DNA of 64,000 bases from Verrucomicrobiales bacterium. GTDB taxonomy: Bacteria > Verrucomicrobiota > Verrucomicrobiia > Verrucomicrobiales > DEV007. The DNA lies in the NCBI GenBank assembly GCA_002698785.1, contig PAAG01000031.1:1-64000 (forward strand), in the 5' to 3' direction. The position numbers and the translations under genes are program-made. Under the pieces are notes generated by a model, which saw only the letters and a program-made list of their open reading frames with translations, searched no databases and was not told where the DNA came from. Below are positions 54,077-62,969 of this stretch, piece after piece; the stretch's first letter is position 1, and each line of letters begins with the position of its first letter.

Positions 54077-54197
54077 GGTGTGTTGTTTACTCCAAGAGAC
54101 AGCGGGAATCAAATACATGAATTGGGGTATATCTGTTCTGGTGACGGTTAGAGCTCTGATTTTTGTGCGATGGGTGCCATTACAGAGATGTCCCGAT

Positions 54198-54484
54198 CCA
54201 TCAAAATGATGGGAAAAGAATGGGTTTTCGTTTTTAGTAGGGGATACTAGGGGAGTATCTTTGTAAGCGACTGTAAGTAAGTGGGATGTGTGGATTTTGA
54301 AAATGCTGGGGAGTTGTCATGACCTATCATTTTGATGCATTTCGGTGCTGAAAGATGCATTTGGGCGAGATTTTACGCTCTCAGGCATGGGTGCATTTCG
54401 AGAGTGGGGCGGACGTTTGGAACAGTTTTTATGGACGAGGTTTTAAAGTCTAACAATGGCACAAAAGTATGCCTTCGTCCAGAT
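54198..54484 (+). repeat. Duplicated noncoding element, copy A
   Basis: In the 527-bp gene-free stretch 54077-54603 I see no convincing gene, but there is an element related to the one at 55320-55579. Shared anchors, in the same order, are GGGTTTTCGTTTTTA, TGTAAGTA, a TTTTG-AAATG-TGGG block, CCTATCATTTTGATGC, GTGGGGCG and CTAACAAT-GCA with GTCCAGAT at the end. The first part is bounded by an inverted repeat: 54198-54213 against 54323-54338, 14 of 16 positions pairing. Confidence 0.7.
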
Positions 54485-55170: not shown

Positions 55171-55319
55171 ATGGGTGGGGAGGATTGAATGCTGGGAGGT
55201 TGGTTGAGCGAGGACGAGGTGAAGTTTGAGATGTTACTGCTGACACCTTCCGACCTTCCACGCTTGCGGGGGATCGTAGTCGTTTCGCCGTGAGGTGCTG
55301 TGTTCCGTCGAAATGTTAA

Positions 55320-55579
55320 GAAATGACAGGGTTTTCGTTTTTATCGGGAAAATGGGGTCCGTTCTTGTGTAAGTAGTTATTGGTTAGTGGTTAGTGCTGG
55401 TTTTGGAAATGATGGGTGGCTGTTTTTTCCTGTCATTTCGATGCCGAATGATGCTTTTTTGGGGAGATTTGGCGGCTTCCAGCGGGTTGGGGTTTTGAGG
55501 AAGGGTGGGGCGATTTTGCTGGTTTTTTGGGCGCGAAATTAATACTAACAATAGCATAATAATTTACTTTTGTCCAGAT
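55320..55579 (+). repeat. Duplicated noncoding element, copy B
   Basis: Second copy of the element at 54198-54484, same orientation, in the 486-bp gene-free stretch 55171-55656. Its inverted arms are GAAATGACAGG (55320-55330) and CCTGTCATTTC (55429-55439), a perfect 11-bp match. Although both arm sequences differ from those in copy A, pairing is kept, which suggests selection for the hairpin or a transposase-bound end. Confidence 0.7.
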
Positions 55580-56478: not shown

Positions 56479-56625
56479 ATGAACATGATCGTAAAAGCAT
56501 TTATAGTTGTTGCTCTGTTTTTCATCATCGAAGCATCTTCCTCCCTGATCGGGGACATACAGTCAGGAAATCCCAAAGCTGCCTGCAACTCTAATGATGA
56601 AGATACTGGCACAACCGAAAGCTAG
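56479..56625 (+). CDS. 48-residue secreted peptide, first gene of operon
   Basis: Short frame (48 codons plus TAG). The N-terminus is a hydrophobic signal-like helix (IVKAFIVVALFFIIEASSS), followed by LIGDIQSGNPKAACNSND and an acidic Thr/Ser tail. The piece from the hydrophobic helix through the single cysteine resembles the N-terminal part of the two 13-cysteine proteins downstream (hydrophobic helix, then SxxxxxGG-x-C). It is 35 bp before the next gene in the same direction. A truncated substrate-like peptide is the most attractive reading. Coding status rests on position, composition and promoter only. Confidence 0.5.
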   Translation: MNMIVKAFIVVALFFIIEASSSLIGDIQSGNPKAACNSNDEDTGTTES

Positions 56626-56660: not shown

Positions 56661-57848
56661 ATGAAGATTCGGGACTCTGCCCTGTTGCTACTGGCGCTCT
56701 TGCCGGTTCATGCGGATTACGCTTCCTGTGATGAGGAGGTATTTCCTGGCGTGGTTTGTAATAATGCAGTCGGAGACGCCTCCCGGTCTGGTGCTTTCTG
56801 GCTCTGGCGAAGTCTTGAGTTGCCGTTTGATCTGGGTGACGGGAAAGGCTTCGATTTGGTGTGGCATTTTGGAACTGATGGGTACTTCGGTTCCGAATCG
56901 TGCTTGGGATACAATTCCTTCTTCCCTCTGTTTGACAGTAATGTAGTGCTTTTGGATGAGGCACGTGCCCGCGTCCATCTTCCAGACGGGAGTGTGATTT
57001 ATATTTATCCGGAGGATATAGACGCAGGCGTCTGGAAATCGCGGAATTTTGCATGGAAAGCAAATGTTGACGGGGATTCTATCGTTCTCTGCCGGGATAA
57101 CGTTTGTCTTCACTACACACAGGGGCGGCTAAGGAAAATTGAGAGTGGTGATGAAGCCATCAACTGGGAGTTTACCAGAGATGGTGTCGAGCTTGTATCG
57201 AGCGTGCGTGGATGTCTGTTGAAGGCTAAATTTGCCGATTCGGATGGTGCCGCGCTGATGAGGGAGTTAGAAGTGTCCTCGGGTCCATGGGCTGGTGAGG
57301 TTGTGGAATTCTCATATTCTGACCGGCCGGTGTTCGCCGAGGTTAACGGGCATCCGATTATATCAGAACTTGTCAGCAGCCTTTCTTTGATTGGTGACAG
57401 TTCAGGAAATATCGTGCAGCTTGAAATCAGCCAGAGTGAGGATGGAACTGAGCAGCTTCGCTGCATCAACGAGTGGGCTCATGGAAATAATTCTGAGCAA
57501 GTTTGGCATTGGGACCTGGCATCCGGCAAGCTTTTGAAGGACGGCCTTAGTGTCTATAAGGACGCTCACCTTACCGCAGATCCGGATTCTGAGGGAATTG
57601 AGAGGATTTTTGCCGACGGGAGCATGCAGGCCTATTACTGGAATCGGGATACCTGTCTGCTCACTGAGGCGCATCGGGATGGGACGCTGACGCAAAAGGT
57701 TTTTGTTGGCACGGTTGGAAAATCCTATATGAAGATGCGCAGTTTCGAAGAAACGATGTTAGTAGGTGAAAGAAGTGAGATGCGCAGAAAGATTCGGTAT
57801 TATTACGACACGGAGGGGAATGTTTTGAGGAAAGTTCAACAAGATTAG
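56661..57848 (+). CDS. Secreted protein with RHS/YD-like strand repeats
   Basis: 395 residues with a signal peptide (SALLLLALLPVHA). The body is beta-rich, resembling degenerate RHS/YD-type sheets: WLWRSLELPFDLGDGKGFDL near the start, VHLPDGSVIYIYPEDI, a series of INWEFTRDGVEL-type strands, and a C-terminal RYYYDTEGNVLRKV. The opening is like the conserved N-terminal fragment that precedes RHS barrels (normal construction, G-x-Y-W-Wx-S-x-x-x-PF). No toxin tip domain follows. It could be a carrier or shell for the small proteins encoded next to it. Role inferred. Confidence 0.6.
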   Translation: MKIRDSALLLLALLPVHADYASCDEEVFPGVVCNNAVGDASRSGAFWLWRSLELPFDLGDGKGFDLVWHFGTDGYFGSESCLGYNSFFPLFDSNVVLLDEARARVHLPDGSVIYIYPEDIDAGVWKSRNFAWKANVDGDSIVLCRDNVCLHYTQGRLRKIESGDEAINWEFTRDGVELVSSVRGCLLKAKFADSDGAALMRELEVSSGPWAGEVVEFSYSDRPVFAEVNGHPIISELVSSLSLIGDSSGNIVQLEISQSEDGTEQLRCINEWAHGNNSEQVWHWDLASGKLLKDGLSVYKDAHLTADPDSEGIERIFADGSMQAYYWNRDTCLLTEAHRDGTLTQKVFVGTVGKSYMKMRSFEETMLVGERSEMRRKIRYYYDTEGNVLRKVQQD

Positions 57849-57859
57849 GTATTGTGTTT

Positions 57860-58279
57860 ATGAAAGGAAATATTGGATTCAAAAGAACGCTCATCATCTT
57901 CGCGCGTCTCATTTCTTGCGCCATGTTTTGTGGAGCTTTATTGTTGTTGTCTGCCATGGGTGAGCAGAAGAAATCGCTCGGTTCGTTGACCGGGGGGGCA
58001 TGTTCGGCAAATGCAAGCGAGGCAGCGTGTGGAGATAACTCGGGGACTTCAGGACAAGCCTGTAATTTGACCAATCCGTGCGTTGATAAATGTTACGCGG
58101 AGAAGAACTGCTATTGCACTGGACCCGCCGATGCAAATTGTAAAAATGATCGGACGAGGGATTGTGAGGTTGATATTCTTACCTGTGACGAAGATGGTGA
58201 AGATCCTACCTTCACTTGTGTTTTTTTTGCTTCTGGTTGGAGTGATTTTTGTGGGAGTGGGTATAAAATTTGTTACTGA
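57860..58279 (+). CDS. Secreted 13-cysteine protein, paralog 1
   Basis: 139 residues. An N-terminal hydrophobic helix (about 10-33, with two cysteines inside it) is followed by a short basic hinge and the conserved SLTGGACSANASEAACG start. The rest has TNPCVDKCYAEKNCYCTGPA, TRDCEVDILTC and WSDFCGSGYKIC. Thirteen cysteines after the helix align one-to-one with those of paralog 2. Either disulfides or metal binding would suit an extracytoplasmic location. Family not recognised. It starts 11 bp after the upstream stop. Confidence 0.75.
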   Translation: MKGNIGFKRTLIIFARLISCAMFCGALLLLSAMGEQKKSLGSLTGGACSANASEAACGDNSGTSGQACNLTNPCVDKCYAEKNCYCTGPADANCKNDRTRDCEVDILTCDEDGEDPTFTCVFFASGWSDFCGSGYKICY

Positions 58280-58307
58280 AACTTTAGATGCTAGAAAATT
58301 CGAAAAA

Positions 58308-58712
58308 ATGAAAATAGCTAAGATGATTTCAAGCGTACTGGTGCTTTTTGCGGTGGCTCACCTGGTGCAGATTCAATTGATCGATCACTCTATTGCTTCA
58401 AATTCAGGTGGGACGTGCGCTCCAAAAAACGGTCAGCCCAAATGCGGAAATCAGCCGGGAACGAAAGGGCAATCGTGTTCTGCCACCAATCCTTGTGCTG
58501 ATAAATGCTTCAACGAGAAAGATTGTAGTTGCACCGGGCCTTCCAATGCTTTGTGCAGCGATAACGGTCAGACTAGAAATTGTGCCGTTGAGACCTACTA
58601 TTGCAATCTCCATGACCCGGATATTAATCCCGACGGAGATAATAAGTGTGCCGTCTTCAGTAGTGGGTTTGGAGGCATCTGTGGGAACGGTTCGTGGCAG
58701 CCTTGCCATTAG
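58308..58712 (+). CDS. Secreted 13-cysteine protein, paralog 2
   Basis: 134 residues from MKIAKMISSVLVLFAVAHLV; a longer frame from 58083 overlaps paralog 1 in another frame and was rejected. After the hydrophobic helix the sequence aligns with paralog 1: SNSGGTCAPKNGQPKCGNQP, ATNPCADKCFNEKDCSCTGP, TRNCAVETYYC, and FGGICGNGSWQPC. All 13 cysteines are conserved while many other residues differ, which indicates that the cysteine framework is under selection. It ends 8 bp before the next gene. Confidence 0.75.
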   Translation: MKIAKMISSVLVLFAVAHLVQIQLIDHSIASNSGGTCAPKNGQPKCGNQPGTKGQSCSATNPCADKCFNEKDCSCTGPSNALCSDNGQTRNCAVETYYCNLHDPDINPDGDNKCAVFSSGFGGICGNGSWQPCH

Positions 58713-58720
58713 GAGGTCAG

Positions 58721-59788
58721 ATGGTGGATGCGATGAGAGTTTTCCGAATTTGTTCGGCCGGTCTGGTCTTTCTGCTTGCTGTTTACGAAACTACAGGGGT
58801 GGCGAAGGATCTTCCCGGTGGAGGGAAAGCGGACTTGCCCAGTGTGAGTGATTTTTCAAAATTTTTGGAATCCTCGCCGCTGCGCAGTAGTTACATGCGT
58901 CTTGTTTTCGATGTGGTTCAGAAAACTGACGTTGTCGGAGGCACAGAAGGAGGCGCCGCTATGCAGCCGGGTACTTTGAAGACCCACCAGGTCCTCTGGG
59001 TGGACCCGGAGGGCCGCGGATTACGGTTCGACACGATTGATTTCGGAAAGTCGGGAAGGGCTCCCTTCATTTCTTCCACATTCACTAATGGTGTGAAGAA
59101 GGGCAGGTGGGATTCGGCGCTCGATATCGAGGGAGTTCAACCTCACCTTGAAGGATCGGAAGAGGCTATTAGCCATCGCCGGGGAGGTTTTTGCTACATT
59201 GGCGATGATGTGATGAGAGATCCCGATCTCCTTTACCGTATCCTTGGGATGACAATTTCAGGGAGGAGGGTCGTTGACTATTTCGGTGCCGCAAAGCCTG
59301 GTAAGTTCAATATTTCCATTTTAGATGGTGGCGATGCCGGGTTTGAGGTTTCTAGCATTTCAAAATCATTTCGATTCGGAACTGACGGGGGGTTGCAGAG
59401 CTACAAGTGGACTGGTCCATCGCTAGATTCTTCCGGTGTGCGCAAACTTCTCGAAAGTATTGTTGTGGAGGAATACTGTAATGTAGGGGGAATTGCTCTT
59501 CCCAAGATAGTAAAGAGAGAAGCGGAAGCCCGGGGTATAAAAGTCGAGGCAATCTACACTTTGCGCGAAGATTTGAGCAAACTTTTGTCCAAGGAAGAGT
59601 TTCAGGGTGGATCCGACCCTCTATTGAGTCCCGGTGTGATCGTTGTCGATCAGAAAACTAACGTCGAGATGACAGTTGAGTCGGCCGAACGGGCCTTCAA
59701 TGTTGTGCCACACTCGGGAGTCCAGCGAAGCTCCGAAGAGCGATTGGAAGAAATTCTGCAGGAGCGTGAGAAACTGCGATCTCAATAA
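58721..59788 (+). CDS. Secreted hypothetical protein of the cysteine-protein operon
   Basis: 355 residues from an ATG preceded by AGGAGG (58711-58716); a start at 58733 is possible. A signal peptide (FRICSAGLVFLLAVYETTGV) leads into a beta-rich protein (YMRLVFDVVQKTDVVGGTEG; HQVLWVDPEGRGLRFDTIDF), loosely similar to the opening of LolA-like lipoprotein-carrier sheets, and a helical Glu/Arg-rich end (SSEERLEEILQEREKL). That similarity is weak and I do not assign the family. It is 1 bp from the C39/DUF1573 gene, so translation is coupled. Confidence 0.6.
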   Translation: MVDAMRVFRICSAGLVFLLAVYETTGVAKDLPGGGKADLPSVSDFSKFLESSPLRSSYMRLVFDVVQKTDVVGGTEGGAAMQPGTLKTHQVLWVDPEGRGLRFDTIDFGKSGRAPFISSTFTNGVKKGRWDSALDIEGVQPHLEGSEEAISHRRGGFCYIGDDVMRDPDLLYRILGMTISGRRVVDYFGAAKPGKFNISILDGGDAGFEVSSISKSFRFGTDGGLQSYKWTGPSLDSSGVRKLLESIVVEEYCNVGGIALPKIVKREAEARGIKVEAIYTLREDLSKLLSKEEFQGGSDPLLSPGVIVVDQKTNVEMTVESAERAFNVVPHSGVQRSSEERLEEILQEREKLRSQ

Positions 59789-59789
59789 A

Positions 59790-61460
59790 ATGAGATCTGC
59801 AATTTTTTTGGGTATCTGTTCGTTCGTTTTGGCTCTTGTATCTGCGTCAGCGGGCCAGTCCACTGCCGAATCTCCCGATTCTTATCGAGTGCTACATACT
59901 GACTCACTGTGCGGTATCAGGTGCATTTATGTTGCTCTGAGAATACTGGATCGCGAAGTCAATTTCTCCGCTCTTGTTGCTGATTATCCAGAGGCGGTAA
60001 AAAGTGGAGTTTCTTTCAGAGATCTCTCTCAAATTGCTGAACGGAGTAATCTGAATACCTCTCTCGGGTTTTTTTCCGCATCGGAACTCATGCTGAGTCG
60101 AGGCGTGGCAATCGTGTATTTAGATCGCTCCACCGATAGTCGTGGTACGAGGGAGCTCGGCCACTTTATTCTGGTCGAGCCCGATAAAGATAATCAGCGG
60201 TTCCTTATAATTAATCCGCCATATTCGCCTGCATTTATTAGAGTAGACGAATTTGGCAATGAGAAACTGAAAGCATTACTTATTTCAAAGGAAGGATTAC
60301 TTCTTTTGAAATTGCGGAAGTATTCTCTTGTAATTCTCCTCTTAGGCGGGGCTTTATTGGTTTACTTTATCCCAAGAGCAGTTGTTGCGATTAGGTCACG
60401 CTCGGGAAAATTGGCTATTTCAACGGGGCTCTTGACGATTGCGGCGTTGGGCATGCAAAGTTGCAGTGACGAACAGCAAGGGGGGGCGAAAATTCGCGTC
60501 GATGCAAGGAATTTTGACGTTGGTAATGTGTGGTCGACTGATTCAAGTGAAGTCATCCAGGTCAGTTACTCAGTTACGAACGTAGGAAATGATGTGCTTC
60601 GCCCACTCAGAATCGAGACTTCATGTCTGTGCGCCGGGGTGGAGCCATTCAAGGAACTCAGTCCAGGTGAGAGTGGGGAATTGGTTCTGAAAATTGTTCC
60701 AAATCCGCGACCGATAGGTGAATACAAGGTGACTGCGGTTGTTGAATCAAACGCACAGAACGAGAAGAAATTGATGCTTTCTGCAGACTTTTCTATTTTC
60801 CCAACTATTTACCCGGTGCCAAGCGCGCTAGGGGTCGAAACTGATTCGGAGATAAGGATTGGTCATGAAGATGTCGAAATCCATTTCCAATCGCCTTCGC
60901 ATTTGAATCTGGAATCAGCTTTTCGGAACGCAACTCTTGAGCGATTCCCTGCAGCATTTGAGCTTTCCGATACGGAGGTTTTGAATGCGGTCGAGGAGCT
61001 TGGTGATTATTCTGTTGCGAAATTAAGGTTTCATTTTGAAGTCACGCCCGAGGCAGAGGCGGGTCGATATTTTGGAGATGTCGTGATACGCGATGGTAGG
61101 ATACCTAGAGAGGATAATCAACTGGTCATCCCGGTGACTTGGGACCACTCAAAGCCCTATAGATTTACCAAGGCGCTACTTCATTTGGGGTATTTGACTC
61201 CAGAAAAGACTAGTGTTTCCGGACGAGCACAGTTTTTGTGGAACGATCGGTCTATCGGTGCAGACGAGTTTGAGTTAATACTCGACGAAGATGGAGATTT
61301 CAGCCTCGAACTCCTAGACACCTCCGAAGGTGAAATCAGTTTTGAAGTTCAGTACAGGCACACGTCTGCAAAAAGGCCCCCGGAGGGATCGCGCGTGATT
61401 GCAGTCGTCGGTGGGGAGGAAATCGCACGACTTCCGATAAAAGTAGGCGTGGTATACTAA
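59790..61460 (+). CDS. C39-like peptidase domain fused to DUF1573 across a membrane segment
   Basis: 556 residues with a signal peptide. Residues 30-150 resemble a C39 (double-glycine leader) peptidase: Cys41 in SLCGIRCIYVALRIL, His125 in LGHFILVEPD and Asn142 in IINPPY where Asp-Pro is usual. The glutamine six residues before the cysteine is replaced (Leu35, with His36 next to it). After membrane segments (SLVILLLGGALLVYFIP; ISTGLLTIAALGMQSC) comes a DUF1573-type Ig-like domain (FDVGNVWSTDSSEVIQVSYS; RIETSCLCAGVEPF) and further beta domains. There is no ABC transporter, so the peptidase probably acts outside the cytoplasm on already exported chains. Confidence 0.75.
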   Translation: MRSAIFLGICSFVLALVSASAGQSTAESPDSYRVLHTDSLCGIRCIYVALRILDREVNFSALVADYPEAVKSGVSFRDLSQIAERSNLNTSLGFFSASELMLSRGVAIVYLDRSTDSRGTRELGHFILVEPDKDNQRFLIINPPYSPAFIRVDEFGNEKLKALLISKEGLLLLKLRKYSLVILLLGGALLVYFIPRAVVAIRSRSGKLAISTGLLTIAALGMQSCSDEQQGGAKIRVDARNFDVGNVWSTDSSEVIQVSYSVTNVGNDVLRPLRIETSCLCAGVEPFKELSPGESGELVLKIVPNPRPIGEYKVTAVVESNAQNEKKLMLSADFSIFPTIYPVPSALGVETDSEIRIGHEDVEIHFQSPSHLNLESAFRNATLERFPAAFELSDTEVLNAVEELGDYSVAKLRFHFEVTPEAEAGRYFGDVVIRDGRIPREDNQLVIPVTWDHSKPYRFTKALLHLGYLTPEKTSVSGRAQFLWNDRSIGADEFELILDEDGDFSLELLDTSEGEISFEVQYRHTSAKRPPEGSRVIAVVGGEEIARLPIKVGVVY

Positions 61461-61478: not shown

Positions 61479-62969
61479 TTGAATAAGCGAATTCAAGGAC
61501 CAGTTCGAAAAGAGAAGCCCGCGCTTCTTCGTTTGGAAGAGGCGTTTCTAATTGACTGGAGGGCAATCGCTACTTTTCGCTTTCTCCTGGGCATTCTCCT
61601 GCTGTTCGACTCGGTTACTCGTATGAGTGATGCCTACGCGCTGTATGGGAACGCTGGAGTTGTCCAAGATGAATTTTCTCAGTCTAAAGATAGTTTCTCA
61701 ATCACGTATTTACTGGCGCATTATGGCTTTCATTGGAGTCTTGCCGTGCTTATCGCGATGTTGTTTTCCGGAATTTCTTTTATCACGGGATACCAATACA
61801 AGTATTTTAAAGTCATTGGTTGGATCGCTGTCGCTGCGATTCAGGCGAGGAACCCCTGGGTAAACACAGGAGGAGATAGCATTTTTCGCATTATTCTCTT
61901 CTGGAATATGTTCCTTTCAGTCGAAAAAACGAGAGGGCTAGTTGAGTGTTCGAACCAATTGAAATCGGCGACGTTGGTAAAGATATCGCACATTTGTATC
62001 ATTTTTCAGATCATGATGATTTATCTTTTCAGTTCGCTTCATAAAAACCATGCGATGTGGAGGGTCGAGTTCACTGCTGTGGAAGCTGCTCTTTCTCTAG
62101 TGACATTTAAGGGCCCGGCCGCTGATTTTTTACTGGAATTTCCCGGTCTGCTTCGCGTATTAACACGGAGCGCTGTCATTTTGCAGGAACTTGGGCCTAT
62201 TTCGTGGCTTATTTTTTACAAGAATCCTCATATTAGAATAGGGATCGTCGGTCTCTTTCTACTGTTTCACCTGACTACCGGGTTAATGCTCAATATCGGA
62301 TGGTTCCCAATCGTGTGTATGGTCGCGTGGGTTCTTTTCATTCCGACGCCAGTTTGGGATCGGCTTTTTAAGATTTGTCGGGCTAAGGTGATTTTCAGCA
62401 AGGTCGCCGAAGGAGGTGCACCTGATTCTCCTTTTTCTTGCCTGCTGTATCAACTGCGAGGCTTACCGATACTGATTTTGGTATTGGTATTTTTTTGGAA
62501 TCTTTCAAACGTAAGTATTCCGGGTTTTGTTGGATTTGGTGATACTTTCGCTGGACAAGTGGTTCGTTTTGTCGAGCTTCAACAAAGATGGCCTTTATTC
62601 GCACCGAGGCCTCCTACTTTCGACGGGATTATTTTTGCTAACACAGAGGTTGAAAGCAAGATAAGGAGTTATTACCCGACGGGGCGCGAATTTGCTACCG
62701 CTCCACCTGATAAGCCGGCGAGGCATTATTTTAGTTCGCGATGGCACAAATATTTTCACAATTTGTACTCGGCAAGGGAGCCGGAGCTATTAAGAAGCTA
62801 TGTCTCGTTCTTTGCGAGGGAGCATAATGTGAAAAGTGCAGAAATACAGTTGTTTGTGAGGGTGTTCCCAGTTGAAAAAAAGAGCTTTCCTGAAGATATT
62901 TTAATTTTCCCGTTTCAGTCCATCAACAGTGAAGGTAAGGCTGTATACTCAAGCGAGTTTCCTCCGTAG
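61479..62969 (+). CDS. HTTM-domain (vitamin-K-dependent carboxylase-like) membrane protein
   Basis: 496 residues from a TTG with AAAGGA upstream (61468-61473). The N-terminal region has the HTTM pattern: IDWRAIATFRFLLGILLLFD, then NPWVNTGGDSIFRIILFWNM, then ICIIFQIMMIYLFSSLHKN with HAMW, and several more membrane helices. The C-terminal part is a soluble domain (RWPLFAPRPPTFDGIIFANT; FSSRWHKYFHNLYS) as in other bacterial members. HTTM is related to vitamin-K-dependent gamma-glutamyl carboxylase; the Bacillus member SdpB is needed to mature the secreted SDP toxin. Last gene of the operon, 18 bp after the C39-like gene. Confidence 0.8.
   Translation: MNKRIQGPVRKEKPALLRLEEAFLIDWRAIATFRFLLGILLLFDSVTRMSDAYALYGNAGVVQDEFSQSKDSFSITYLLAHYGFHWSLAVLIAMLFSGISFITGYQYKYFKVIGWIAVAAIQARNPWVNTGGDSIFRIILFWNMFLSVEKTRGLVECSNQLKSATLVKISHICIIFQIMMIYLFSSLHKNHAMWRVEFTAVEAALSLVTFKGPAADFLLEFPGLLRVLTRSAVILQELGPISWLIFYKNPHIRIGIVGLFLLFHLTTGLMLNIGWFPIVCMVAWVLFIPTPVWDRLFKICRAKVIFSKVAEGGAPDSPFSCLLYQLRGLPILILVLVFFWNLSNVSIPGFVGFGDTFAGQVVRFVELQQRWPLFAPRPPTFDGIIFANTEVESKIRSYYPTGREFATAPPDKPARHYFSSRWHKYFHNLYSAREPELLRSYVSFFAREHNVKSAEIQLFVRVFPVEKKSFPEDILIFPFQSINSEGKAVYSSEFPP

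Follow-up and report, generated by a model that had tools for sequence, protein, structure and literature searches.

Exported 13-cysteine paralogs in a verrucomicrobial operon as possible cargo of a Sec-exported C39 peptidase

The window examined here, a 64,000-nucleotide stretch from a Verrucomicrobiota genome of 7.0 Mb in 60 contigs, contains a tight operon of seven same-strand genes, two of which encode exported 13-cysteine proteins (P0001 and P0002), a genuine and conserved pair that falls into no known class. We propose that this pair forms the cargo of an export-and-maturation cassette, in which the C39 peptidase domain of the neighbouring protein P0006 would remove a leader at a Gly-Gly motif; we regard this proposal as roughly an even call. 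The operon context accounts for the two proteins better than their own sequences do. The genes, in the order P0003, P0004, P0001, P0002, P0005, P0006 and P0007, are separated by 35, 11, 28, 8, 1 and 18 bases, respectively, and they and their relevant parts are as follows:

56479–56625, + strand: P0003, an exported peptide of 48 amino acids with a hydrophobic helix, one cysteine (KAAC) and a tail rich in S, T, D and E
56661–57848, + strand: P0004, a secreted Rhs/YD-repeat-like protein of 395 amino acids (E 1e-13 to its homolog in locus L118; family profile matches Rhs cores)
57860–58279, + strand: P0001, the first 13-cysteine exported paralog, 139 amino acids
57992–57997, + strand: Gly45-Gly46 of P0001, where the C39 domain is proposed to cut (SLGSLTGG/AC; the Gly-Gly is read from the sequence, the cleavage is putative)
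58308–58712, + strand: P0002, the second 13-cysteine exported paralog, 134 amino acids
58407–58412, + strand: Gly34-Gly35 of P0002, the corresponding proposed cut (SIASNSGG/TC; the Gly-Gly likewise read directly, the cleavage putative)
58721–59788, + strand: P0005, an exported protein of 355 amino acids with no fold assigned and no Pfam match
59790–61460, + strand: P0006, a signal sequence followed by a C39 domain, two hydrophobic segments and a DUF1573 domain, 556 amino acids (PF03412, PF07610)
59910–60260, + strand: peptidase C39 domain of P0006, residues 41–157, its triad positions occupied by Cys41, His125 and Asn142
61479–62969, + strand: P0007, an HTTM-domain membrane protein (vitamin-K-carboxylase-like), 496 amino acids (PF05090, 31.7 bits, over the cut-off)

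The G+C content is 0.46–0.50 at 54–64 kb, versus 0.50–0.59 elsewhere in the window. A 40-nucleotide direct repeat (80% identical; 54197–54236 and 55304–55343) is situated in this region of lower G+C, ahead of the operon.

An earlier note on this DNA had described P0001 and P0002 as secreted tandem paralogs that share all 13 cysteines, and this description holds: both reading frames are present as listed above, and the two proteins are 38% identical over 132 residues (BLASTP, E 1e-27), with each of the 13 cysteines that lie C-terminal of the Gly-Gly matched in the alignment. The similarity of the ectodomains far exceeds that of shuffled sequences (Z = 22.8), and by our own arithmetic the chance of retaining 13 of 13 cysteines at ∼38% identity is approximately 0.38^13, or ∼3e-6. 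The spacings between successive ectodomain cysteines are 8, 10, 5, 3, 5, 1, 7, 7, 6, 10, 10 and 6 residues in P0001 and 8, 10, 5, 3, 5, 1, 7, 8, 6, 14, 10 and 7 in P0002; P0001 has two additional cysteines within its hydrophobic segment (C20 and C24), for a total of 15. Both proteins are laid out in the same way, with a short basic start, a hydrophobic segment, the Gly-Gly and then the cysteine-rich domain.

Profile searches of the pair against Pfam, NCBIfam, PHROGs, PADLOC and the sequences of the PDB returned no match, which bears out the statement in the same note that no known family could be recognised. Relatives of the 13-cysteine proteins were likewise not found in 75 genomes of the same family, in viral contigs or in plasmids, and a profile search of 388 genomes of the phylum gave only weak matches to chance reading frames. 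A scan of 84,980 species for the motif PC-x-DKC-x5-C-x-C found chance occurrences or unrelated cysteine-rich proteins, such as a 1477-residue frame in Candidatus Caenarcaniphilales (L076) that contains 140 cysteines in a repeated C-x3-C-x5-C-x-C pattern. Structure prediction, which had been suggested as a check on the pair, was uninformative, the model of P0002 (pLDDT 42) being too poor for use. Two other assignments were considered and set aside. The GGAC, GGTC and KAAC motifs of P0001, P0002 and P0003 do not fit the lipobox [LVI][ASTVI][GAS]C of lipoproteins; and a likeness of the layout to the NVEALA proteins of Bacteroidota, which was borne out neither by a Pfam match nor by any mention in the literature searched, is not claimed.

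The earlier note did not mention that the Gly-Gly might mark a cleavage site, nor did it cover the C39 peptidase or the other genes of the operon. In P0006 the C39 domain scores 22.0 bits against PF03412 (cut-off 22) and the DUF1573 domain 30.6 bits against PF07610. Alignment indicates that Cys41 and His125 are conserved, that Asn replaces the Asp of the triad and that the usual oxyanion Gln is not in place. When the entire protein was used as a query, it matched only lone DUF1573 proteins, from Verrucomicrobiota and Planctomycetota. P0006 looks like a fusion, since its C39 and DUF1573 parts correspond to separate genes in a related locus described below (L118), and its internal hydrophobic stretch would then be the counterpart of the signal sequence of the free-standing DUF1573 protein.

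In both P0001 and P0002 the Gly-Gly is positioned immediately N-terminal of the first ectodomain cysteine. The consensus of double-glycine leaders consists of Leu at −12, Glu at −8, Leu at −7, a hydrophobic residue at −4 and small residues (Gly-Gly/Ala/Ser) where cleavage occurs (PMC6363468). The two putative leaders in the window fit it only in part: in P0001, Leu occupies −7 and −4 but position −12 is Glu, and that of P0002 has Leu at −12 and Ile at −7 but Asn at −4.

Using the YD protein as a query, we uncovered approximately 20 related loci in Verrucomicrobiota. When 289 genomes from the order were searched with a profile of YD proteins, 24 gave matches (including two further ones in the genome of the window itself, at L131 and L175), and a profile built from 19 members gave additional matches in other orders of the phylum; 159 Planctomycetota genomes contained none. 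The two additional cassettes in the window's genome are located on other contigs (L131 at G000:C6 and L175 at G000:C3), and the copy on C6 is flanked by transposase genes, which suggests mobility. An exported cysteine-rich reading frame adjoined the YD gene (on the same strand and within 2.6 kb) in 11 of 22 cases, whereas control genes had such a neighbour in 3 of 91 (p = 3e-7); the first of these counts is low because the filter missed P0001, L171 and L197, for reasons of overlap or signal sequence.

Two of the related loci share more of the gene order. In L118, from a genome of the same genus that was reached through a C39 search of the same-family genomes, the YD gene is followed by genes for a secreted cysteine-rich protein, a counterpart of P0005, an exported C39 protein (45.3 bits) and, as a separate gene, a DUF1573 protein. 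This shared order (YD, cysteine-rich, P0005-like, C39, DUF1573) supports the pairing of the cysteine-rich cargo with the peptidase. In L197, from a different family and order of the same class, the YD, cysteine-rich and P0005-like genes are accompanied by a small, exported C39-like protein that has Cys, His and Asp in place and scores 20.1 bits, just below the cut-off. The cysteine-rich protein of L197 has 13 cysteines and consists of a signal sequence, the canonical leader LTDSELNSVEGG and then LC, whereas that of L118 bears LSADEMVLVTGR, which is near-canonical, departing from the consensus at position −1 (Arg); the probability of such a motif arising in the region by shuffling is 6e-4 for L197 and 2e-4 for L118. 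At a fourth locus, L170, the cysteine-rich protein keeps a Gly-Gly (SPTSGGEC) although His is missing from the C39-like domain.

A Gly-Gly or leader is borne by a cysteine-rich protein at all four loci that have a C39 domain (the window, L118, L170 and L197) and at none of the six that do not (L131, L163, L164, L172, L175 and L198). The one-sided exact probability of this co-occurrence is 1/210 by our own arithmetic (4/120 if L118 is not scored as a match), for a sample of ten loci that were chosen after the pattern had been noticed. Counting against the pattern, L197 also encodes a cysteine-rich protein that lacks a Gly-Gly. A second secreted type, of approximately 300 amino acids, beginning with NADDDCC and having no Gly-Gly, is found in one genome (G113) at L197:5810-6733 and L198:3738-4643.

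The same observations can be read in another manner, which we consider unlikely: P0001 and P0002 might be ordinary secreted proteins of the surface or matrix, rich in disulfides and processed by signal peptidase I, with the C39-like domain serving as a non-proteolytic binder or acting on some other partner and the Gly-Gly being incidental. Plausible signal peptidase sites are present in both paralogs (in P0002, the Ser-Ile-Ala ahead of SNSGG), a Gly-Gly before the first cysteine is expected by chance in 2–4% of cases per protein, and the C39 domain of P0006 sits at the Pfam cut-off without its usual Gln. The six loci in which cysteine-rich partners occur with neither C39 nor Gly-Gly also fit this reading. 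It is more difficult to reconcile with the presence of the Gly-Gly in both paralogs, with the pairing of an exported C39 with a canonical leader in L197 and a near-canonical one in L118, and with the conserved order of the C39 and cysteine-rich genes in three genomes.

As far as sequence can tell, what is kept among these loci is the place in the cassette and not the cargo: apart from P0001 and P0002 themselves, the cysteine-rich partners of different loci display no homology when aligned and compared to shuffles. Their cysteine counts at the equivalent position are 6, 6, 7 or 8, 10, 10 or 11, 11, 12 and 13 (the last in L197, in another order). The suggestion in the earlier note that an odd number of cysteines points to a modification, a dimer or a metal site is weakened accordingly, because neither the parity nor the number is kept across loci. 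A metal-binding or redox role, similar to that of a metallothionein and with the odd cysteine as a ligand or electron-transfer site, is in our estimation very improbable. While the high cysteine content, the odd count and the MauE and rhodanese genes near two of the related loci (L164 and L197) would suit such a protein, the sequences contain a single C-x-C rather than a dense CxC/CxxC pattern, the spacings of 5–14 residues are suited to disulfides, export favours oxidised cysteines, the number of cysteines varies between loci and no known metal-site profile is matched.

The 48-residue peptide encoded upstream, P0003, had been described as though it were a minimal member of the 13-cysteine group. 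The peptide is real, has the same layout (helix, small residues, cysteine) and belongs with the pair; but it has a single cysteine and no detectable similarity to P0001 or P0002, and is better described as a separate element that recurs with the cassette than as a demonstrated minimal member. Comparable peptides of 48–66 amino acids, in which a hydrophobic helix is joined to a tail rich in S, T, P and D and most have a single cysteine near this tail, are encoded upstream of YD genes, at a distance of 7–39 bases in the window, L163, L164, L165 and L170 and of 182 bases in L169. These exported peptides may possibly be signalling or modified peptides themselves.

Several additional genes recur with the cassette. 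HTTM proteins are often encoded divergently from it, and in eight aligned sequences Lys189 and His264 (P0007 numbering) are invariant; Lys189 would fall at the position of the residue that acts as catalytic base in human vitamin-K carboxylase. P0005 and its counterparts in other loci weakly share a C-terminal ‘VxDxxTN’ tail. Its predicted structure (pLDDT 44) was uninformative, and a suspected LolA-like fold was not supported. Secreted alpha/beta-hydrolase-like proteins (LVLxPGxNGxG) adjoin the YD gene in L118, L163, L171, L196, L197, L198 and L201, and the one that was tested had no Pfam match. MauE/DoxX and rhodanese genes and O-antigen-ligase-like (Wzy_C) genes are also found repeatedly near cassettes (L164:790-2161, L197:13115-13998, L165:11154-12503 and L197:11460-13004), and a link to thiol redox chemistry or to glycosylation is possible.

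Comparison of the 19-relative YD profile to the PDB identified Tse5 (E 1.1e-4) and the Rhs cores of type VI secretion systems, with E values ranging from 1e-4 to 1e-2. The P0004 family therefore resembles the YD cores of Rhs toxins at the level of its profile, but differs from them in its size (∼400–500 amino acids, versus a core of ∼1000 residues), in having no C-terminal toxin domain and in that its partner is a separate cysteine-rich protein.

A relationship to toxin shells raises the prospect that P0001 and P0002 are ribosomally made, bacteriocin-like antagonistic peptides, each with a leader, a cross-linked cysteine-rich core and dedicated maturation enzymes, which the YD protein would shield or deliver. 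Double-glycine leaders, together with C39 peptidases, are a typical trait of bacteriocins (PMC6363468), and cargo that varies between loci while its partners are kept would be in line with such a function. So would two loci from Akkermansia-like genomes, of which the order of the window genome includes a large group (2.2–3.3 Mb; the genus name is our own presumption). In one such genome (G104), L171:8252-12095 contains a YD gene followed by genes for a radical SAM/SPASM enzyme closest to PapB (E 7e-77, below the family cut-off) and QhpD and for a 355-residue, 32-cysteine protein with DxC-type repeats, and is apparently an undescribed radical SAM peptide locus; at L174:6209-8280 a 344-residue, 34-cysteine protein with SGC-type repeats (NCBIfam CefA, 40.5 bits) is encoded just upstream of the YD gene. 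Because these loci pair YD proteins with a PapB/QhpD-like maturase, a modification system for YD-linked cassettes as a whole is possible. The likeness to known radical SAM-modified, cysteine-rich peptides (PapB ranthipeptides, QhpD, CefA/CefB) is confined to the maturase or CefA-family peptide of the Akkermansia-type loci: P0001 and P0002 have no similarity to such peptides, and the operon in the window contains no radical SAM enzyme or other modification enzyme of a known type, no ABC transporter gene and no immunity gene. Cargo of 93–99 residues would also be large for a bacteriocin, and PADLOC gave no match. On balance we consider a bacteriocin-like identity to be improbable for this pair.

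We therefore return to the proposal of cargo cut by an exported C39 peptidase. The operon, the paralogy, the conserved cysteines, the Gly-Gly, an exported C39 domain with its Cys and His, and the synteny can all be read from the sequence. In the proposed mechanism, the N-terminal hydrophobic segment would carry P0001 and P0002 across the inner membrane via Sec, and the membrane-held C39 domain of P0006 would then cut in the periplasm after the Gly-Gly that precedes the first cysteine (a cognate pairing for which synteny and the relatives argue). The products would be proteins of ∼93–99 residues starting with Ala-Cys or Thr-Cys, which, if nothing else happens, might close six disulfide bonds and leave one cysteine over. 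Given their recurrent linkage, the DUF1573 domain, P0005 and the HTTM and YD proteins may assist the cargo in the periplasm or at the surface, by folding, modifying, holding or delivering it. The end role is most likely extracellular, in antagonism or surface attachment.

Such an arrangement shares with double-glycine/C39 export systems (AMS/PCAT; class II bacteriocins and RiPPs) the joint encoding of a C39 with Gly-Gly leaders (canonical in L197) and the diversity of the cargo (PMC6363468), but its C39 is exported rather than fused to an ABC transporter, a Sec-type signal precedes the leader and the cargo is larger. The nearest precedent known to work is the functional-amyloid (Fap) system of Pseudomonas, in which the C39 protease FapD is exported to the periplasm via Sec and secretion requires its active-site Cys (PMC5557850). 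There too, an operon encodes Sec-exported substrates and a C39 that bears its own signal sequence (as, judged by sequence, do P0006 and the proteins of L118 and L197), and non-canonical Gly-Gly motifs occur among the substrates. No C39 site of canonical form was found among the Fap proteins, the target of FapD remains unclear and the periplasmic C39 class has yet to be characterised (PMC5557850). In the window, unlike in the Fap system, the substrates are cysteine-rich, the partners are YD, DUF1573 and HTTM proteins, the C39 is fused to DUF1573, and Pfam recognised no FapF-like outer-membrane pore or amyloid repeats.

A broader idea, which we advance tentatively and as possible rather than probable, is that these loci represent a new system of the Verrucomicrobiota. 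In it, an Rhs/YD half-shell that stands alone, a short cysteine-containing peptide and an HTTM (vitamin-K-carboxylase-like) membrane enzyme would build and display or deliver interchangeable cysteine-rich proteins, with an exported C39 cutting at the Gly-Gly after Sec, so that double-glycine processing would take place beyond the inner membrane and not at an ABC transporter. The cassette links Rhs-type shells, HTTM enzymes and cysteine-rich exports, and does so in a phylum in which secreted peptides have received little study. Since a periplasmic C39 protease here adjoins exported proteins that bear a double glycine, one of them canonical (L197), the question of what such proteases cut could be addressed with two purified proteins; if the proposal is true, this little-understood protease class would gain a target that can be tested.
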